This document shows, piece by piece, positions 45,521-55,579 of a DNA stretch of 64,000 nt. The translations under genes were made by a program, and so were the position numbers. The notes below the pieces were generated by a model that saw only the letters and a program-made list of their open reading frames with translations, was not told where the DNA came from and made no database searches. The DNA is from Candidatus Peribacteria bacterium RIFOXYB1_FULL_54_35 (GTDB taxonomy: Bacteria; Patescibacteriota; Gracilibacteria; Peribacterales; Peribacteraceae), in the NCBI GenBank assembly GCA_001787755.1, contig MFYJ01000012.1, positions 1-64,000 on the forward strand. Direction: 5' to 3'. Positions within the stretch are counted from its first letter, which is position 1. The number at the start of each line of letters is the position of its first letter.

Positions 45521-47887
45521 CTATTTCTGTAGATGTGTTCGTAGCGCTTTTAGTTGTGTATCACTGATGATGTTCCTCAATTCTTCATCTGAGGCTTCCT
45601 GAATGTTTCTCACTGCCCCGAACCTTGTGAGGAGAGCCTGTTTCATCTTCGCTCCTATTCCCGGCACGTCGTCCAACGCGGAACTTATTGTATGCTTTGC
45701 AATGCGCTTTTTACGGTGCTCGTTGGCGAATCTGTGCGCCTCGTTCCGGATGCGTTGCAATAAGAACTGTGCCTGAGAATCTTTGGGGAGGGGTATGGGG
45801 TGTGGGGTGTCCGGGAGGAATAGTTCCTCCTCTTGTTTTGCCAGACCTATCACGGGGATGTCGAGGTTGTACTCTTTGAGCACCTTCACAGCGCTCCCAA
45901 GTTGCCCTTTGCCGCCGTCGATGAGGAGGAGATCAGGTTTCTCTGAGAGAGAGATATCTTTTTTGTGATCAGCATAGATGTACACCATCACGATGCCCGG
46001 GGGCACACCCTTCTCTTTCTCTGCTATCCGGAGTTTCTTTTCCACAATGGGTGGGTGGGTGTTCGTATGCCGGAAGCCGAGGTTACTGTAGTACTCTTCA
46101 AGGGAGGTTCTGACTGTGACGTACACCTTCTTCGTATTTTTCTGCATGCTGAGCATTTTTCTCACAAGAAACTGGCCGAGGTGCTTCCCGCGCACGTCGT
46201 TGCGGACCCAGAGGCTCTTGAGTTCCCTGTGTCCTCCCTCATGCTCCACCATGCGGCAGAAACCGATAATTACATCCTCCTTCCGTGCGACGAGGTATTT
46301 CCTGTAGTCGATTTCTTTATTGTTAATCTCCTTGTAATTTTCCTCATGGATCCGGTCAACGGCTTTCTGTTCGGCCTTCCGCACTTTGCCGAACGTGATG
46401 TCCTCTCTCTTCCACTGCTCCTCCTCCAGCTTAAGATCTTGCGTGAGGTACTTGAGTCTCCGTCTCAGTACTTCTTCCAGTGCCCTGTAGTCATCGATGT
46501 CTCCTTCCTTCAGCGTCTGGATGGTGAAGGAACGGTAGTCCTTCGGGGCCGGTTTCCCGTTGATGGTTACTGCCATGCTTCCCACTGTTTCTGTGCCGCC
46601 AAGGTGGGAAATGTCATAGCCTTCTATTCTTCTGGGTTTCTCCGGGAGATGCAGAGCTTCTGTAAGTTCCACGAGAGCTTCTTCGATGTTCCGCACGGCA
46701 GATTCCCATTTCGCTTCCAGCTGCTTCACTTTCTCCGTGGCATTCCTCTCGGCAAGCTGCAGTACCTTTGATTTCTTCCCCCGCTCAGGCATGCGCACTT
46801 CCACAGTTCTTCCTTTTTGTTCAGTCAGCCATGCTGAGAGGAGACCGGCATCTTCGATCTCTTCTCCGATCACAACGAGATCGGGAAGGTCCGGCACCGA
46901 GGAGTAGTACTGCGGCAGAAACTGCTCCAGTGCTTCTGCGGGGGAGTCCGGTTCTCCCCTGAGCGGGAAACTCTGCTCCCCGATGAGCTTGCCGCCCCGT
47001 TCACGGAGCGCCACAATCAGCGCTTTGGATCCGCTCATTGCAACTGCGAATGTGTCGGTGTCTTCTCCCGAGGTGCCGGACACGATTTGTTCCTTCCGCA
47101 TCTCTTCCATGAAGCGGACAGCGTCGCGCAGCTTCGCAGCTTTCTCGAATTTTCTGTTCCGTGCTGCTTCCTGCATCATCACTGTCGCCTGCTTGAACAC
47201 GGTGCTGTGGTTTCCCTTAAAGAATGCGACAACTGCGTCTATGCGGTTCCTGTATTCCTCCTGCGAAATTTTCCCCATGGCGACGCCGCACGATTGGCCG
47301 ATCTGGAAATCCAGCGATGCGTGAGCATGACCATGGTCTTCTCCTTTCTGCGCCGCACGGTTGAGTTTTTCCAGTGCTTTCCTGTCCTCACGGTAGTTGA
47401 GTATTTCCTGCAGGACATCGAGTGTCCTTTTCGTATCGTATGCGCTGAGGAACGGGCCGAAGTATTTCGCTCCGTCATGCTCCGTCCGCCGCACGACGCC
47501 CACATCCGGGTAGGGGTTCTGCAGGCCGATACGGACATACACGTAGTTCTTGTCGTCCTTCATCAGCACGTTGTACTTCGGCTTGAGTTCTTTGATGAGG
47601 TTCGTTTCCAGGATGAGCGCTTCCAGTTCGGAGTTTGTGACGGTTGTATCAAAGTCTGCGATGTGCCTGATGAGCGAGAGTTTCCAGGGGCCGATGTTGA
47701 GGTCCGGTTTCTCCTGTACGTAACTCTTCAGGCGATTTTTCAGATTCTTGGCTTTTCCCACGTACAGCACTTCTCCTTCTTTCCCGAGCCATTTATAGAT
47801 GCCGGGGTCTGTCGATGCTTTGGCAGTGCGCCTCCGGAGCTCTGCGAGGTGGGAGTTTGGCGCTTCTGGTGGCTTCTTCGCGTTCAC
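45521..47887 (-). CDS. uvrC: Excinuclease ABC subunit C with internal GNAT-like insertion
   Basis: GIY-YIG (GIYKWLGKEGEVLYVGKAKNLKNRL), UvrB-binding, YDISHLGGTETVGSM, LLLIDGGKGQL, tandem HhH; insertion at residues ~482-648. Confidence 0.95.
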   Translation of the reverse strand: MNAKKPPEAPNSHLAELRRRTAKASTDPGIYKWLGKEGEVLYVGKAKNLKNRLKSYVQEKPDLNIGPWKLSLIRHIADFDTTVTNSELEALILETNLIKELKPKYNVLMKDDKNYVYVRIGLQNPYPDVGVVRRTEHDGAKYFGPFLSAYDTKRTLDVLQEILNYREDRKALEKLNRAAQKGEDHGHAHASLDFQIGQSCGVAMGKISQEEYRNRIDAVVAFFKGNHSTVFKQATVMMQEAARNRKFEKAAKLRDAVRFMEEMRKEQIVSGTSGEDTDTFAVAMSGSKALIVALRERGGKLIGEQSFPLRGEPDSPAEALEQFLPQYYSSVPDLPDLVVIGEEIEDAGLLSAWLTEQKGRTVEVRMPERGKKSKVLQLAERNATEKVKQLEAKWESAVRNIEEALVELTEALHLPEKPRRIEGYDISHLGGTETVGSMAVTINGKPAPKDYRSFTIQTLKEGDIDDYRALEEVLRRRLKYLTQDLKLEEEQWKREDITFGKVRKAEQKAVDRIHEENYKEINNKEIDYRKYLVARKEDVIIGFCRMVEHEGGHRELKSLWVRNDVRGKHLGQFLVRKMLSMQKNTKKVYVTVRTSLEEYYSNLGFRHTNTHPPIVEKKLRIAEKEKGVPPGIVMVYIYADHKKDISLSEKPDLLLIDGGKGQLGSAVKVLKEYNLDIPVIGLAKQEEELFLPDTPHPIPLPKDSQAQFLLQRIRNEAHRFANEHRKKRIAKHTISSALDDVPGIGAKMKQALLTRFGAVRNIQEASDEELRNIISDTQLKALRTHLQK

Positions 47888-50801: not shown

Positions 50802-53258
50802 CTATTCCTGCTTTGTTTCCGCCTCCCCTTCTACAGCTTTCTTTTTTCTGCGGTTCTTCTTTCTCTTCGGTTCGTTTCGTTCTCCTGCGCCTTTTCTGAG
50901 GAAGGCAGGGAGGAGCAGGGGGTCCTGTAATTCCTCGATCTGTTCAATAAGTCTCAGATCTTCCAGTGCTATCTTCCCAAGGTAGAGCCGGGTGAGATCG
51001 CCGCCATCCTCCACGAATCTCTCGATGGCACGCACACCGCGGAAGTAGACGACACCTTTTGTGAATCCGCCTGGTTCCGATGTATCGCAGAGCCCCCGCT
51101 TGATGGCGATGGTTTGGGTGAGCGCTCTTGCGGAGGAGAATCCCAGCTCTTCCCGAAGGTATTTCCGGGTTTCCGCGAAGGAATGATCGAGGCCGAAGGC
51201 AACGCCGAGGACGTTTCTTGGAGGGTTGTACCTCTTCTCATGAAAGGGACTGAGTACGCGGTTCTGGTTGAAGATGGAGAGGCCTTCCTGTGTGTCGAGG
51301 TAATTTGCGCAACCGTTTCTGAACAGTGCATATGGCTGGAGGGCTCCGTTCTCTGCGGTGAGGATGTGTGTTTCAATTTCATGTGCGATGAGGGCATCCA
51401 CATGCATCCGCTCAAAAAGCGCGCTTTCTCTGATATAGACCTTGTTTCCGCCGACTGTGCAGTCGGAGACGAGCCTCGGTCGTACCACCACTTCCCAATC
51501 GTGGAGACTGTAGCGTTCCAGTGCTTTTGTGAGAATATTCCGCGTTTCTTCCGATGTGAGGAGATCTTTTTTCTGTGGTGGCAGATCACAGGCAATGCGG
51601 TTGTGGAGTTCCGCCTTTGCTGCTCTGAGCAGTGCGGACGTGGGTGCGCCGAAGAGTTTCATGGAATATTCCGTGAAGCGTGCGGCGTGACCGCGCGACC
51701 GCAGGAGGGCGATGCGCGTGAGCAATTCCTGGCGCTTCTTCTCCAGCAAAATTCCCAGAGGTGAAGAGTCCTGCACAGGGTTCTCGAGTTTGCGTTCGGC
51801 TTCATCCAGATCCATTGCCACTTCTCTGTAATGGAAGATCGGGTTGTACTTACTGTCCTGTTCCAATCTCCCGCGCTCTTCCTCGAGGTTGGCAGGTTTG
51901 ATGTGTCTGAGGAGGAGCAGGTCGCGGTCCATTTGAGCGAACAGCTTGTCCACTACGCGGAGATCTGCTTTTACAGAAGCCTTCTGCGCCTGGATAGGTG
52001 TTTCTTTCGAGGGGTCGAGGAGGAATCCTGCGAGATCGCGGCGTCCGATCATTGCTCTCTCTTCTCCTGATACTTTACCTGTTCCCACGAGTGTCTGGAT
52101 TTTCTTGCCGGCGAGTGTGAACTTCACGCGGAAGGTTCGCTCCTTCTCGTCTTCCACTTCCAATGCGCCCGTTCTTTGCAGGCTTTCGATAAGTTCCGGG
52201 GAAAACACTGTTCTCTCGTGCTCCGGGGTAATGAGGCAGGGCACTTCTATATTCACACCGTCACCACTAATCACAATATTCTCGTTTGTTCCGAGAATTG
52301 TTTTTTTGTTCTCAGGTTCTTTCTCTGTTCTCTTTGCTTTTCCTTCTCCAAAGAGATCCTGTCCCATACGTACGCCTTTCTCCGGGCTGTTCACCTTCAC
52401 GCCTATGACTCGCTCGAGTCTCGCACGGAGCGGTGCGAGGTTGGCAACCTGCACCATCAGTCCGGCGCGCGCATTCACTTCCAACAATGCCGGGCCCATG
52501 TGCTGATCGATGGTGATATCCACAGCGAGGTAGCCGATATTCGTGATCTGCTGAATGCGTGAGCTCACTTCGAGGATTTCATTCCAGTGTGGAATCTGGA
52601 TCCCGCTCGGAGAACCCCCGTGGGGCAGTTCCGTGATGATGCTGTGGTACTGGGCTGCATGCGTTGTCACCCCCTTTGCAAGGTCAATGCCAATGCCTAT
52701 GCCCCCAAGGTGAATGTTTGCTTTCCCCTCGCTCTGAGCAGTGGGGATACGGAGCATGGCCATGACGGGGACCAGGTTGAAGACAATGACACGGATGTCC
52801 GGGAGGCCGGCTGGCCGGAAGCGCGCGAAGCACTCATGGGGGATGAGGATCTGCTCAAAAAATGCGGTATCTTTTCTCCCGTTTACAGAGAACATGCCGT
52901 CGAGAATGTCTTCGATGTGCTCAGTAATTTCCTGGTTGGTCATTGGTTCTTTTCCCCGGAGGAATACTCCCTTCCTCCGTCCGTTGAAAACGAGGATTCC
53001 CTCGCCGCCAAAGCCAAAGTTCGGCTTGAGTACGCATTCATCCGGGAGTTGGGAAAAATCAAAATCTCTCAGCTGTTCCCGCGTTTCTATGCGTGCGTAG
53101 ATTTTCGCCGTCGGGACGCCGCGTGCGGCGAGGAATGCTTTCGTTTTGAGTTTGTCATCTGCGAAGGCAACTGCTTTTCGCGGGTTGAAAGGTTTCACGT
53201 AGAGGAGATTCCTTGCGTTGAGTCCCAGGATGCCGTGGTTAGAGAGGAAGGAGAACAT
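50802..53258 (-). CDS. ATP-grasp ligase (RimK-related/ATPgrasp_ST-like) fused to aspartyl-protease-like and DUF1704 (MATCAP-like) metallopeptidase domains
   Basis: LGLNARNLLYVKPFNPRKAV, VLKPNFGFGGEGILV, LLEVNARAGLMVQVAN; middle IEVPCLITPEHERTVF...VGTGKVSGEERAMIGRRDLAGFLLDP; C-terminal HEIETHILTAENG...TQEGLSIF. Confidence 0.82.
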   Translation of the reverse strand: MFSFLSNHGILGLNARNLLYVKPFNPRKAVAFADDKLKTKAFLAARGVPTAKIYARIETREQLRDFDFSQLPDECVLKPNFGFGGEGILVFNGRRKGVFLRGKEPMTNQEITEHIEDILDGMFSVNGRKDTAFFEQILIPHECFARFRPAGLPDIRVIVFNLVPVMAMLRIPTAQSEGKANIHLGGIGIGIDLAKGVTTHAAQYHSIITELPHGGSPSGIQIPHWNEILEVSSRIQQITNIGYLAVDITIDQHMGPALLEVNARAGLMVQVANLAPLRARLERVIGVKVNSPEKGVRMGQDLFGEGKAKRTEKEPENKKTILGTNENIVISGDGVNIEVPCLITPEHERTVFSPELIESLQRTGALEVEDEKERTFRVKFTLAGKKIQTLVGTGKVSGEERAMIGRRDLAGFLLDPSKETPIQAQKASVKADLRVVDKLFAQMDRDLLLLRHIKPANLEEERGRLEQDSKYNPIFHYREVAMDLDEAERKLENPVQDSSPLGILLEKKRQELLTRIALLRSRGHAARFTEYSMKLFGAPTSALLRAAKAELHNRIACDLPPQKKDLLTSEETRNILTKALERYSLHDWEVVVRPRLVSDCTVGGNKVYIRESALFERMHVDALIAHEIETHILTAENGALQPYALFRNGCANYLDTQEGLSIFNQNRVLSPFHEKRYNPPRNVLGVAFGLDHSFAETRKYLREELGFSSARALTQTIAIKRGLCDTSEPGGFTKGVVYFRGVRAIERFVEDGGDLTRLYLGKIALEDLRLIEQIEELQDPLLLPAFLRKGAGERNEPKRKKNRRKKKAVEGEAETKQE

Positions 53259-53259
53259 G

Positions 53260-53697
53260 AAGGGTTAGGGTTTGGGTTAGGGTTAGGAATGTGCAAATTT
53301 CTGAATCAATCCGCTCAGGAGTCTCCCCGTTTCATCCGATAAATTTTTTGCACGGGATGTTTCCTTCTGCTGGAGCAGTCCAAGTTCTTCGCACACGAGG
53401 AGCAAGGCTTTTACTTCGGAGCATTCCCCCCTTGAGGTTGTATACTTGTGTGCTTTGTCCGCAGCTGTCGCCCGGCTGAACCCTTCTGCCAAGTTTGCGA
53501 GAATACTCACGACGGCACGCCGGATTTGTGCGGTGAGGCCGTACTGTTCTTCGGGAGGGAGTTTCCTTGTGAGGACATACGCCTCTTTCACGAGTTGCAT
53601 TCCCTTCTGCCACACATCGAGGTCAGTGAACGATTCCATAGGTCATTTTGGGTACTTAATTCTCAATTCCTAACCCTAACCCTATCCCCAACCCTAT
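53260..53697. mobile_element. Candidate element: telomere-like inverted repeats flanking a four-helix-bundle gene
   Basis: gggttagggttaggaat (53274-53290) is an exact inverted match to attcctaaccctaaccc (53666-53682). Confidence 0.6.
53283..53639 (-). CDS. Four-helix-bundle protein (S23/IVP, Avd-like family)
   Basis: FTDLDVWQKGMQLVKEAYVLTRKLPPEEQYGLTAQIRRAVVSILANLAEGFSRATAADKAHKYTTSRGECSEVKALL. Confidence 0.92.
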   Translation of the reverse strand: MESFTDLDVWQKGMQLVKEAYVLTRKLPPEEQYGLTAQIRRAVVSILANLAEGFSRATAADKAHKYTTSRGECSEVKALLLVCEELGLLQQKETSRAKNLSDETGRLLSGLIQKFAHS

Positions 53698-55214
53698 TCC
53701 TCCTGAAGGTGCTTAAAGACTTCGCGGAAGCGAAAGTACTCTACGAGGCGCAAACCGGTCCATCTCCCGAGTATGGCATCGGCGGCGATGGTGAACAGGA
53801 TAAGTTCAGGGTAGGCGAGGGCGAACGACTGGAGCCAGGGCCACTGCACAATGAACACGCAGAGGAGAGCCGCAAGGATAGTTTCGCCAGTTCCGAGGAT
53901 GGCGCTGTAGAGGCCCTCTTCTGTTTTCACGTTCAGGAAGCTCTCGGAGAGCGTGGACATAATGAGGAGCACGAAGATCGTGTCTCTGGCGAGGATGATA
54001 TGGAAGAGCGTTCCCAGCCCAAGGAGCAGAAGAAGGGTGATACTCACGACTGTGATGACAATGGCAACTTTTGGGATGTAGAGCAGCCGCCAGCGGCGCA
54101 TGAATGCCCGCGTTGCATACCCGGTTATGATGATGAAGAGAAGGAAGGCAAGCCCAATGGGCCATCCCAGCGCGAGGAAGCTCAGGGCAACTACGGATGG
54201 AGTGTAGAGTCCGAATGTTGTAATGCCGATCACCTGTTTTAAGAACGCCAGGATCATGGCTATGACGGGGAGCATGAGAAGCAGGATCACCGTTTGGCTG
54301 GAAACGCCGTGCGTGAGCATGTAATTCACGAGAGACGAGAGCAGATTCCATGGGCGTATACCTGTCGTTGACTTGTCCACAATCAGGTAGTCGGTGTCCC
54401 GCTTATCGAGTTCCTCCACGAACTGCTCCACGGTAGCCGATGAGATGAGGGGGTTCATGGCCACTCGCCGTGTGATGAGAATCTGTCTTGGCCCGAGGAC
54501 TGAGAATGGCCCGCGCGCAGTGCGTCCCAGTACTTTCAGGTTGCGGTCGGAGATGAGCACAATGCTCTGATTTTTCATACTCTGCATGCGCTCCGTGTCC
54601 TGCTCGATGGCACGCATGAATGCCTGCAGGCCTGTGATCCCCTCCGTCCAGAGCACGATGGCCGAAGCGCCGTTCAGAGCAGAGGACTGTTCTTGGATGA
54701 GTTTCACCAGCGCTTCTTCGGTGCCGAGCGGCGCGCCGGTAATTACCGGCTGAAGGACACGGAGAAATACGCCTTCCTCTGCAGCAGTTTGCTGGTGAAT
54801 CTGCAGCTTCTCCGTTGGGATGCTGCTGTCTGCTATCAGTACGATCTTCCGTTCGTACACGGTGATTTGCTTCTCTACTTCAGCTTCCACTTCCTCGCCG
54901 TCGATTGTGGTGCTGACAACGAGACGGATGGAAGTGACGCCCGGTTCTTCCGGAGTGTACACCGCCTCTACCGTGCGGCTGATGGGTTGCGGGAGACTGT
55001 CTCTGTACCAGCGGTAACTTACGTCTTCTCCCACACCCACGGATGCCGAGGCATCGAGAACGAGGGTTCGCCCTACTGCTATGTCGTCGGGTCCTCTGAT
55101 AATAGGAGTGAGTGGCACTCCCACTCCCAGCACTTCTCCTGTTGCAGCCACCGCAGGGAGTGCGATGCTACAGGTGACTGAGAGAAAGCCGAAGAGAGCG
55201 ATGAGGCGTTTCAT
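53694..55214 (-). CDS. 7TM membrane protein of the '7TM_transglut' type with N-terminal extracytoplasmic domain
   Basis: Signal peptide, Ig/PKD-like segment, then 7 TM helices with VIGITTFGLYTPSVVALSFLALGWPIGLAFLL. Confidence 0.8.
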   Translation of the reverse strand: MKRLIALFGFLSVTCSIALPAVAATGEVLGVGVPLTPIIRGPDDIAVGRTLVLDASASVGVGEDVSYRWYRDSLPQPISRTVEAVYTPEEPGVTSIRLVVSTTIDGEEVEAEVEKQITVYERKIVLIADSSIPTEKLQIHQQTAAEEGVFLRVLQPVITGAPLGTEEALVKLIQEQSSALNGASAIVLWTEGITGLQAFMRAIEQDTERMQSMKNQSIVLISDRNLKVLGRTARGPFSVLGPRQILITRRVAMNPLISSATVEQFVEELDKRDTDYLIVDKSTTGIRPWNLLSSLVNYMLTHGVSSQTVILLLMLPVIAMILAFLKQVIGITTFGLYTPSVVALSFLALGWPIGLAFLLFIIITGYATRAFMRRWRLLYIPKVAIVITVVSITLLLLLGLGTLFHIILARDTIFVLLIMSTLSESFLNVKTEEGLYSAILGTGETILAALLCVFIVQWPWLQSFALAYPELILFTIAADAILGRWTGLRLVEYFRFREVFKHLQEE

Positions 55215-55219
55215 TCCTT

Positions 55220-55579
55220 CTATTGGGGACGGCGCTGCCGGGGCGCTCGTGCGGACCGCGAGGGCTTACGTGATGTGCGGAGTTCTTTGTACCTTTTGAG
55301 TTGCGGCTCGAGCTTTTCCACGCATCTGTCCACTGCTTCGCGCACGGTTGACTTCCGGGATTCCGCACGGAGAGTTTCCTCTGGCAAGTCCACCGTAATG
55401 GTTGTTTTCACCGTGTCCTTTTGCTTCTTCGTACGGCGCAGCTCCGTGTCTATGCGAATGCTTGAGCTCTCGTCCTTCACACGTTTGCAGTACGTTGCGA
55501 TCTTGCCAAGCTTACGGGCCATCCAGAGCAAGTCACGGTTGGTGTACTCAAATCCTTTCTCGAAGTGCTGAATGTTCAT
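55220..55579 (-). CDS. Hypothetical basic protein
   Basis: 119-aa ORF immediately upstream of the 7TM gene, same strand. Confidence 0.6.
   Translation of the reverse strand: MNIQHFEKGFEYTNRDLLWMARKLGKIATYCKRVKDESSSIRIDTELRRTKKQKDTVKTTITVDLPEETLRAESRKSTVREAVDRCVEKLEPQLKRYKELRTSRKPSRSARAPRQRRPQ

Follow-up and report, generated by a model that had tools for sequence, protein, structure and literature searches.

The protein encoded at positions 50802..53258 on the minus strand of the window, the 64,000-nucleotide stretch of DNA that was analysed, is a triple fusion of an ATP-grasp ligase, a retropepsin-fold domain that is catalytically dead as judged from its residues, and a MATCAP metallocarboxypeptidase (818 aa). 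It is read here as the cytosolic writer and eraser of an rlo-type system with the C-terminal tail of a neighbouring 7TM membrane protein as putative acceptor, and this reading is given a probability of roughly 50%. The fuller account, put forward tentatively and with slightly less confidence, is that a bacterial membrane protein undergoes reversible C-terminal (poly)glutamylation by one polypeptide, in which a metallocarboxypeptidase took the place of an aspartic endopeptidase as eraser, and that the tail of the membrane protein evolved to -Glu-Glu to suit the new eraser.

Domain architecture of the fusion protein

The 818 codons form one unbroken frame in the ORF reading of the window, and the plus strand is interrupted by stops across the same positions. 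No signal sequence was found on the protein, and its K/R-rich C-terminal tail was not conserved among the aligned homologues. An AlphaFold2 model built from 35 natural sequences had a mean pLDDT of 87.9 and a pTM of 0.51; the predicted domains are good in this model and their mutual orientation is uncertain.

The N-terminal ATP-grasp ligase domain (residues 4-305, 52344..53249, minus strand) is RloC/RimK-like according to Pfam, NCBIfam, alignments and the model, in line with the original prediction of a RimK-related ATP-grasp. ATPgrasp_ST (Pfam) matched residues 16-284 with an E-value of 9e-59, and TIGR02291 (NCBIfam, alpha-L-glutamate ligase-like) matched over the whole model with 3.6e-76 and 256 bits compared to an equivalog cut-off of 314. 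The domain was checked for missing active-site residues, and K36, K78, D247, E260 and N262 were all present. They are invariant in 18 fusions, are shared with E. coli RimK in the alignment and can be assigned by homology as the probable ATP/Mg-binding residues.

The C-terminus had been predicted to be a DUF1704/MATCAP domain on the basis of HEIETH...TQEGLS, which was confirmed. The metallocarboxypeptidase domain (residues 446-790, 50889..51923, minus strand) was placed by PF08014 and by the model. PF08014 (Pfam MATCAP/DUF1704) matched residues 467-786 with an E-value of 7e-49 and 167 bits at a cut-off of 27, and TIGR02421 (NCBIfam, QEGLA) gave 1.6e-56, which lies under its equivalog cut-off. 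Compared with human MATCAP (7z5g), the C-terminal part of the model reached a Z-score of 25.3 across 284 residues. HEIETH is an HExxxH metal motif (residues 626-631, 51366..51383, minus strand), and TQEGLS (residues 656-661, 51276..51293, minus strand) contains E658, the predicted third metal ligand and counterpart of TMCP1 E316 in the literature. Both motifs are invariant, the former in 18/18 fusions, and H626, E627, H631 and E658 were all present in the window protein and unchanged in the 18 fusions. The arrangement of HExxxH and a distal Glu also occurs in TMCP1/2, and mutation of either TMCP1 glutamate strongly reduces activity (PMC10499314). From tubulin tails, TMCPs remove glutamates at the C-terminus as well as polyglutamate (PMC10499314).

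The relationship to tubulin-tail enzymes allows for an added residue other than glutamate. The ligase might attach such a residue, comparable to Tyr in the case of tubulin tyrosine ligase, and MATCAP might remove it, with -EE as an acceptor like -EEY of alpha-tubulin. This would agree with MATCAP/TMCP1 being mainly a detyrosinase that requires a penultimate Glu, with weak TTL profile matches in some relatives, and with a ligase model that resembles ArgX/LysX about as closely as RimK (Z 18.3 for its N-terminal part with ArgX 3vpb and 17.4 with RimK 5zct). However, glutamate chains are what RimK, RimB and RloA all act on, the family is annotated as alpha-L-glutamate ligase-like, and a residue other than glutamate is considered improbable.

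The retropepsin-fold middle domain

Between the two enzymes lies an RloA/RimB-like domain with retropepsin fold (residues 318-418, 52005..52307, minus strand), which was recognised by model and profile. No Pfam match was obtained for this region of the window protein (about 318-418), and it aligns with the PF05618-positive domains of two-domain relatives, several of which exceed the PF05618 cut-off. Modelled alone, it reached a pLDDT of 93.2. The model resembled the Legionella DUF785 protein 2pma (Z 11.9) and the Pseudomonas crystal structures of RloA2 (9g59, Z 11.6) and RloA (9g58, Z 11.2), followed by Ddi1 and retroviral proteases, and the profile gave E-values of 3.6e-8 and 5.3e-7 with the RloA2 and RloA chains, respectively.

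The typical site of the two-domain relatives reads A-K-[IV]-D-T-G-A, followed by a flap and then by an ...IIGR..L..FLID motif. In the alignment, the catalytic ...IDTGA of these proteins is replaced in the window protein by LITPEH (residues 342-347, 52218..52235, minus strand), so that ITP stands in place of DTG, and the flap segment before IGRRDL is missing. The same applies to the other fusions, in which DTG is absent or mutated and the flap missing; none has both. DTG(A) and flap were kept in 43/45 two-domain ligase-retropepsin proteins without a fused MATCAP, and the two exceptions are a split triple fusion (L014) and a protein with a neighbouring MATCAP gene (L063). The site was scored as DTG and not as DTGA in the tabulation of 145 systems described below. 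Three fused systems (L019, L022 and L139) were flagged there as D[TS]G followed by Lys; L019 and L022 are without a flap, and the match of L139 does not fall within the aligned site.

From these residues, the middle retropepsin of the fusions is predicted to be catalytically dead. With DTG and flap lost, it cannot count as a second working peptidase; this rules out two active peptidases in one chain, and the fusion therefore has a single working (predicted) peptidase. The original description of this region as RimK-associated and aspartyl-protease-like thus held for the fold, but not for a working second peptidase.

Distribution and evolution of the fusion

Homologues were found by an alignment-based scan of genome contigs. 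Candidatus Peribacteria/Peregrinibacteria came out as the closest relatives of the host with a name. A match was present in 147 of the 192 genomes sampled from the window's class, mostly as full-length single chains, and the triple fusion is the normal form in this class. The fusion, which had looked new in the original prediction, is not a one-off. Misassembly, which had been raised as a concern, could be excluded because full-length single-ORF homologues are encoded in most genomes of the same family and across the class; the presence of the unbroken ORF in dozens of independent genomes likewise ruled out chance. Apparent gene splits in L058 and L059 turned out to be due to TGA=Gly recoding. 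The fusion is readable with TGA=Gly in these two and in L212-L229 (Gracilibacteria-type), for which the standard code gives seemingly split genes. The searched literature on ATP-grasp proteins, to which the review of Iyer et al. 2009 did not belong, did not mention DUF1704 or MATCAP alongside them.

The dead retropepsin domain could be a sign of a decayed or moonlighting fusion with one or both of the remaining enzymes inactive too. Yet, homologues of as little as about 27% identity still have the same ligase and metal-binding residues, and the fusion is matched in the large share of the class given above, which makes decay extremely unlikely.

In a tree of the ligase domain, 67 of 69 fusions were found in one supported clade. 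The fusions L026 and L029 were placed elsewhere, among two-domain DTG-intact proteins, and the fusion therefore arose at least twice. A live retropepsin and a closely coupled MATCAP nearly exclude each other, with three exceptions. In the order of G047, MATCAP is the next gene and the retropepsin was without DTG in 29/29 scored systems, mostly with NTG and otherwise broken in the others. MATCAP was not found anywhere in ten genomes with DTG-intact systems by the same search that detected it in the window genome. L028, L115 and L116 are intermediates with intact DTG, MATCAP as next gene and no -EE tail.

The 7TM partner and neighbouring genes

Directly upstream of the fusion gene are an HPF-like gene, the 7TM gene and a small gene for a four-helix protein. 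The 7TM gene (53694..55214, minus strand) encodes an RloB-like membrane protein with a 7TM_transglut domain (PF14402, E 3e-27) and a basic C-tail ending RFREVFKHLQEE. It is the only PF14402 protein in the window genome (1.56 Mb), and no transglutaminase Pfam match was found on it. Its hydropathy profile displays a signal-peptide-like start, an extracytoplasmic N-terminal region, a run of hydrophobic segments and the basic C-tail, and is consistent with a C-terminus in the cytosol. The codons GAG GAA (53697..53702, minus strand) encode the C-terminal Glu-Glu, which is proposed to serve as acceptor and as the site of trimming. Nearly all homologues have a 7TM gene beside them, as far as the proteobacterial RloB-RloC (7TM and ATP-grasp) pairs.

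The HPF/S30AE-like ribosome-hibernation protein is encoded by the first gene of the apparent operon (55220..55579, minus strand). Such a gene is also the first of the 7TM-fusion operon in several relatives from the same family (L033, L034, L035, L037, L046, L057 and L124), which hints at a tie to ribosome hibernation or stress. The four-helix protein encoded between the genes for 7TM protein and fusion (53283..53639, minus strand) is 23S_rRNA_IVP/bAvd-like and has counterparts in a few relatives only (L008, L057 and L046, in the latter after the fusion), as if recently inserted, and GGGTTA-like repeats adjoin its ORF in the window. Elsewhere in the window, the UvrC domains of a UvrC-like ORF (45521-47887, minus strand) flank a GNAT acetyltransferase domain at about residues 513-609. 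The window genome also contains a second, stand-alone MATCAP gene on contig C11 (L120:6463-8816), which overlaps an ATP-grasp ligase ORF and forms another ligase and MATCAP pair with it. This ATP-grasp ORF gave weak BacD/dapdiamide-synthase-like matches and is located next to dihydroorotase and aspartate carbamoyltransferase genes.

The 7TM tail and the type of eraser

The tails of the 7TM proteins were compared in a non-redundant set of 145 systems. An -EE end was present in 86 of 91 systems with coupled MATCAP and without DTG (59/62 with the fusion, 27/29 with an adjacent gene) and in 3/3 of the fused systems flagged D[TS]G, compared to 2/51 DTG-intact systems and a background of 7/659 unrelated long ORFs. 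Fisher's exact test of -EE versus system type gave a p of 9e-30, a figure that ignores shared ancestry. About 5 changes of the retropepsin state and 8 of the tail state were counted on the tree, and in independent pairs, which were too few for significance, the two states were never opposed. The -EE tail co-varies with the eraser type, with about five independent events. As the idea had been formed on the first loci, 40 fused loci were subsequently retrieved to test it. All of these were fused (40/40), none had DTG (0/40), and -EE was found in 21 of 24 new loci with a recognisable 7TM gene; L251 was one of the 40 but already part of the first set and was left out of the 24. A strict -EE end was missing in L024, L026, L049, L154, L155, L231, L241 and L245. 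Proteobacterial RloB tails do not end in -EE. The 7TM proteins of L100 and L179 end in -EEE although these are DTG-intact two-domain systems, and MATCAP was not found in the L100 genome.

A Shine-Dalgarno origin of the tail was checked because GAG GAA resembles such a string. The -EE codons would then be a by-product of the ribosome-binding site of the next gene, and the tail would have no enzymatic meaning. GAGGAA/AGGAGG does resemble a Shine-Dalgarno site, the next start lies <=15 nt from the 7TM end in many systems, and the window's -EE codons read AGGAGGA, Shine-Dalgarno-like though too distant from the next start. However, with the next start >15 nt away, -EE was present in 30/31 coupled versus 1/16 DTG-intact systems. 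The values were 7/7 versus 0/13 when the next start was upstream of the -EE codons (overlap) and 49/53 versus 1/22 at a spacing usable as Shine-Dalgarno. In six recoded loci (L220, L221, L223, L224, L228 and L229) the 7TM gene comes after the fusion and still ends in -EE, and many -EE ends are encoded by GAA GAA. A Shine-Dalgarno origin is therefore largely rejected as a general account of -EE and must be regarded as very unlikely.

The co-varying tail points to the last residues of the 7TM partner as a concrete candidate acceptor. A different acceptor might be tagged and trimmed instead, namely, a ribosomal protein or free poly-alpha-glutamate as osmolyte, with the 7TM protein as membrane sensor or anchor and -EE as docking signal for MATCAP. 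Besides modifying RpsF, RimK synthesises free poly-Glu, which is also among the possibilities raised by the Rlo authors (PMC12239564), and the HPF-like gene leads the operon in the window's family. This HPF adjacency is limited to the window's family, though, whereas the 7TM gene adjoins nearly everywhere. RpsF/S6 is regarded as an unlikely acceptor because none of the S6 C-termini in 17 relatives ended in -EE (a further row, L208, was a poor ORF assignment). Another acceptor alone would also leave unexplained that the tail switch follows the eraser switch. It is thus judged unlikely, albeit with some arguments in its favour.

Proposed mechanism

In the preferred reading, with the 7TM tail as acceptor, the ATP-grasp domain (RloC/RimK class) would attach glutamates, or a comparable acidic residue, to the RloB-like partner at the expense of ATP, with alpha-peptide bonds formed at its cytosolic C-terminus, where the encoded tail is -Glu-Glu, and the MATCAP domain would trim the added residues from the C-terminal end. 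Glutamate is the probable added residue by homology. RimK attaches glutamates at the RpsF C-terminus, from which RimB takes them off again (PMC7343187), and E. coli RpsF ends with -SEE. The presence of ligase and peptidase in a single chain argues strongly for a common substrate of the two in the cytosol; that this substrate is the 7TM tail, and that tail length serves as a signal for membrane or osmotic stress, is suggested with more caution. The idea of a tag-and-trim system, already part of the original prediction, appears correct as a predicted function.

The middle domain presumably descends from a retropepsin of the RloA/RimB type, the former eraser. When the carboxypeptidase took over, the domain would have lost DTG and flap and may have stayed as spacer or docking domain. 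A carboxypeptidase depends on a C-terminal end that suits it, and this would account for the appearance of -EE upon replacement of the endopeptidase. The findings beyond the original prediction are the class-wide conservation, the replacement of the eraser, the co-variation of the tail, the dead middle protease and the RloB-like 7TM partner.

Comparison with known systems

The rlo operon of Pseudomonas encodes the retropepsin RloA, the inactive-transglutaminase-7TM protein RloB and the ATP-grasp protein RloC, and is linked to osmotic stress, biofilm and antibiotic tolerance (PMC12239564). RloA cleaves poly-glutamate in vitro, and mutations in rloB or rloC rescue the loss of the RloA proteases (PMC12239564). 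The window locus is a variant of this operon in which the eraser was swapped from an endopeptidase to a carboxypeptidase, and it documents the replacement of one eraser class by another within a fused enzyme. Both share a homologous ligase (38-42% identity to proteobacterial members), a homologous 7TM partner, a domain with RloA fold and the adjacency of the genes. They differ in the fusion of RloC and RloA, in the RloA-like domain, which is predicted to be dead and is without signal peptide, in the added MATCAP, in the -EE tail of the 7TM protein and in its missing transglutaminase Pfam match. Pseudomonas RloA is exported while the RloA-like domain of the fusion is predicted to be cytosolic; thus, the compartments differ, which counts against the main reading. 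The Rlo paper names no bacterial proteins other than RpsF and SdeA as polyglutamylated (PMC12239564). If the main reading is true, the 7TM protein is a candidate substrate for the rlo operon, whose substrate is unnamed there (PMC12239564).

The locus belongs to the Rim/Rlo group of writers and erasers. Like the window system, RimK-RimB combines an ATP-grasp ligase with a retropepsin partner, and its acceptor tail (E. coli RpsF) ends in -EE, as does the putative one here. It differs in that it has no 7TM partner, is unfused and has an active RimB, and the N-terminal region of RimK is absent in the window ligase. In other Patescibacteria, parts of the same system exist as two-domain RloC-RloA proteins and as stand-alone DUF1704 genes, with the same 7TM neighbour. 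In these two-domain systems, however, the retropepsin is of the active type unless MATCAP is coupled, and -EE is not the usual end of the 7TM tails. With MATCAP/TMCP1 and TMCP2 (KIAA0895L, KIAA0895), the window domain shares the fold (Z 25.3), the HExxxH...E metal site and, as it seems by analogy, the action on acidic C-terminal tails from which Glu is removed. In contrast to them, it is bacterial, fused to a ligase and without tubulin as substrate, at about 20-23% identity. The bacterial MATCAP family, kin of these tubulin-tail enzymes, thereby gains a proposed role.
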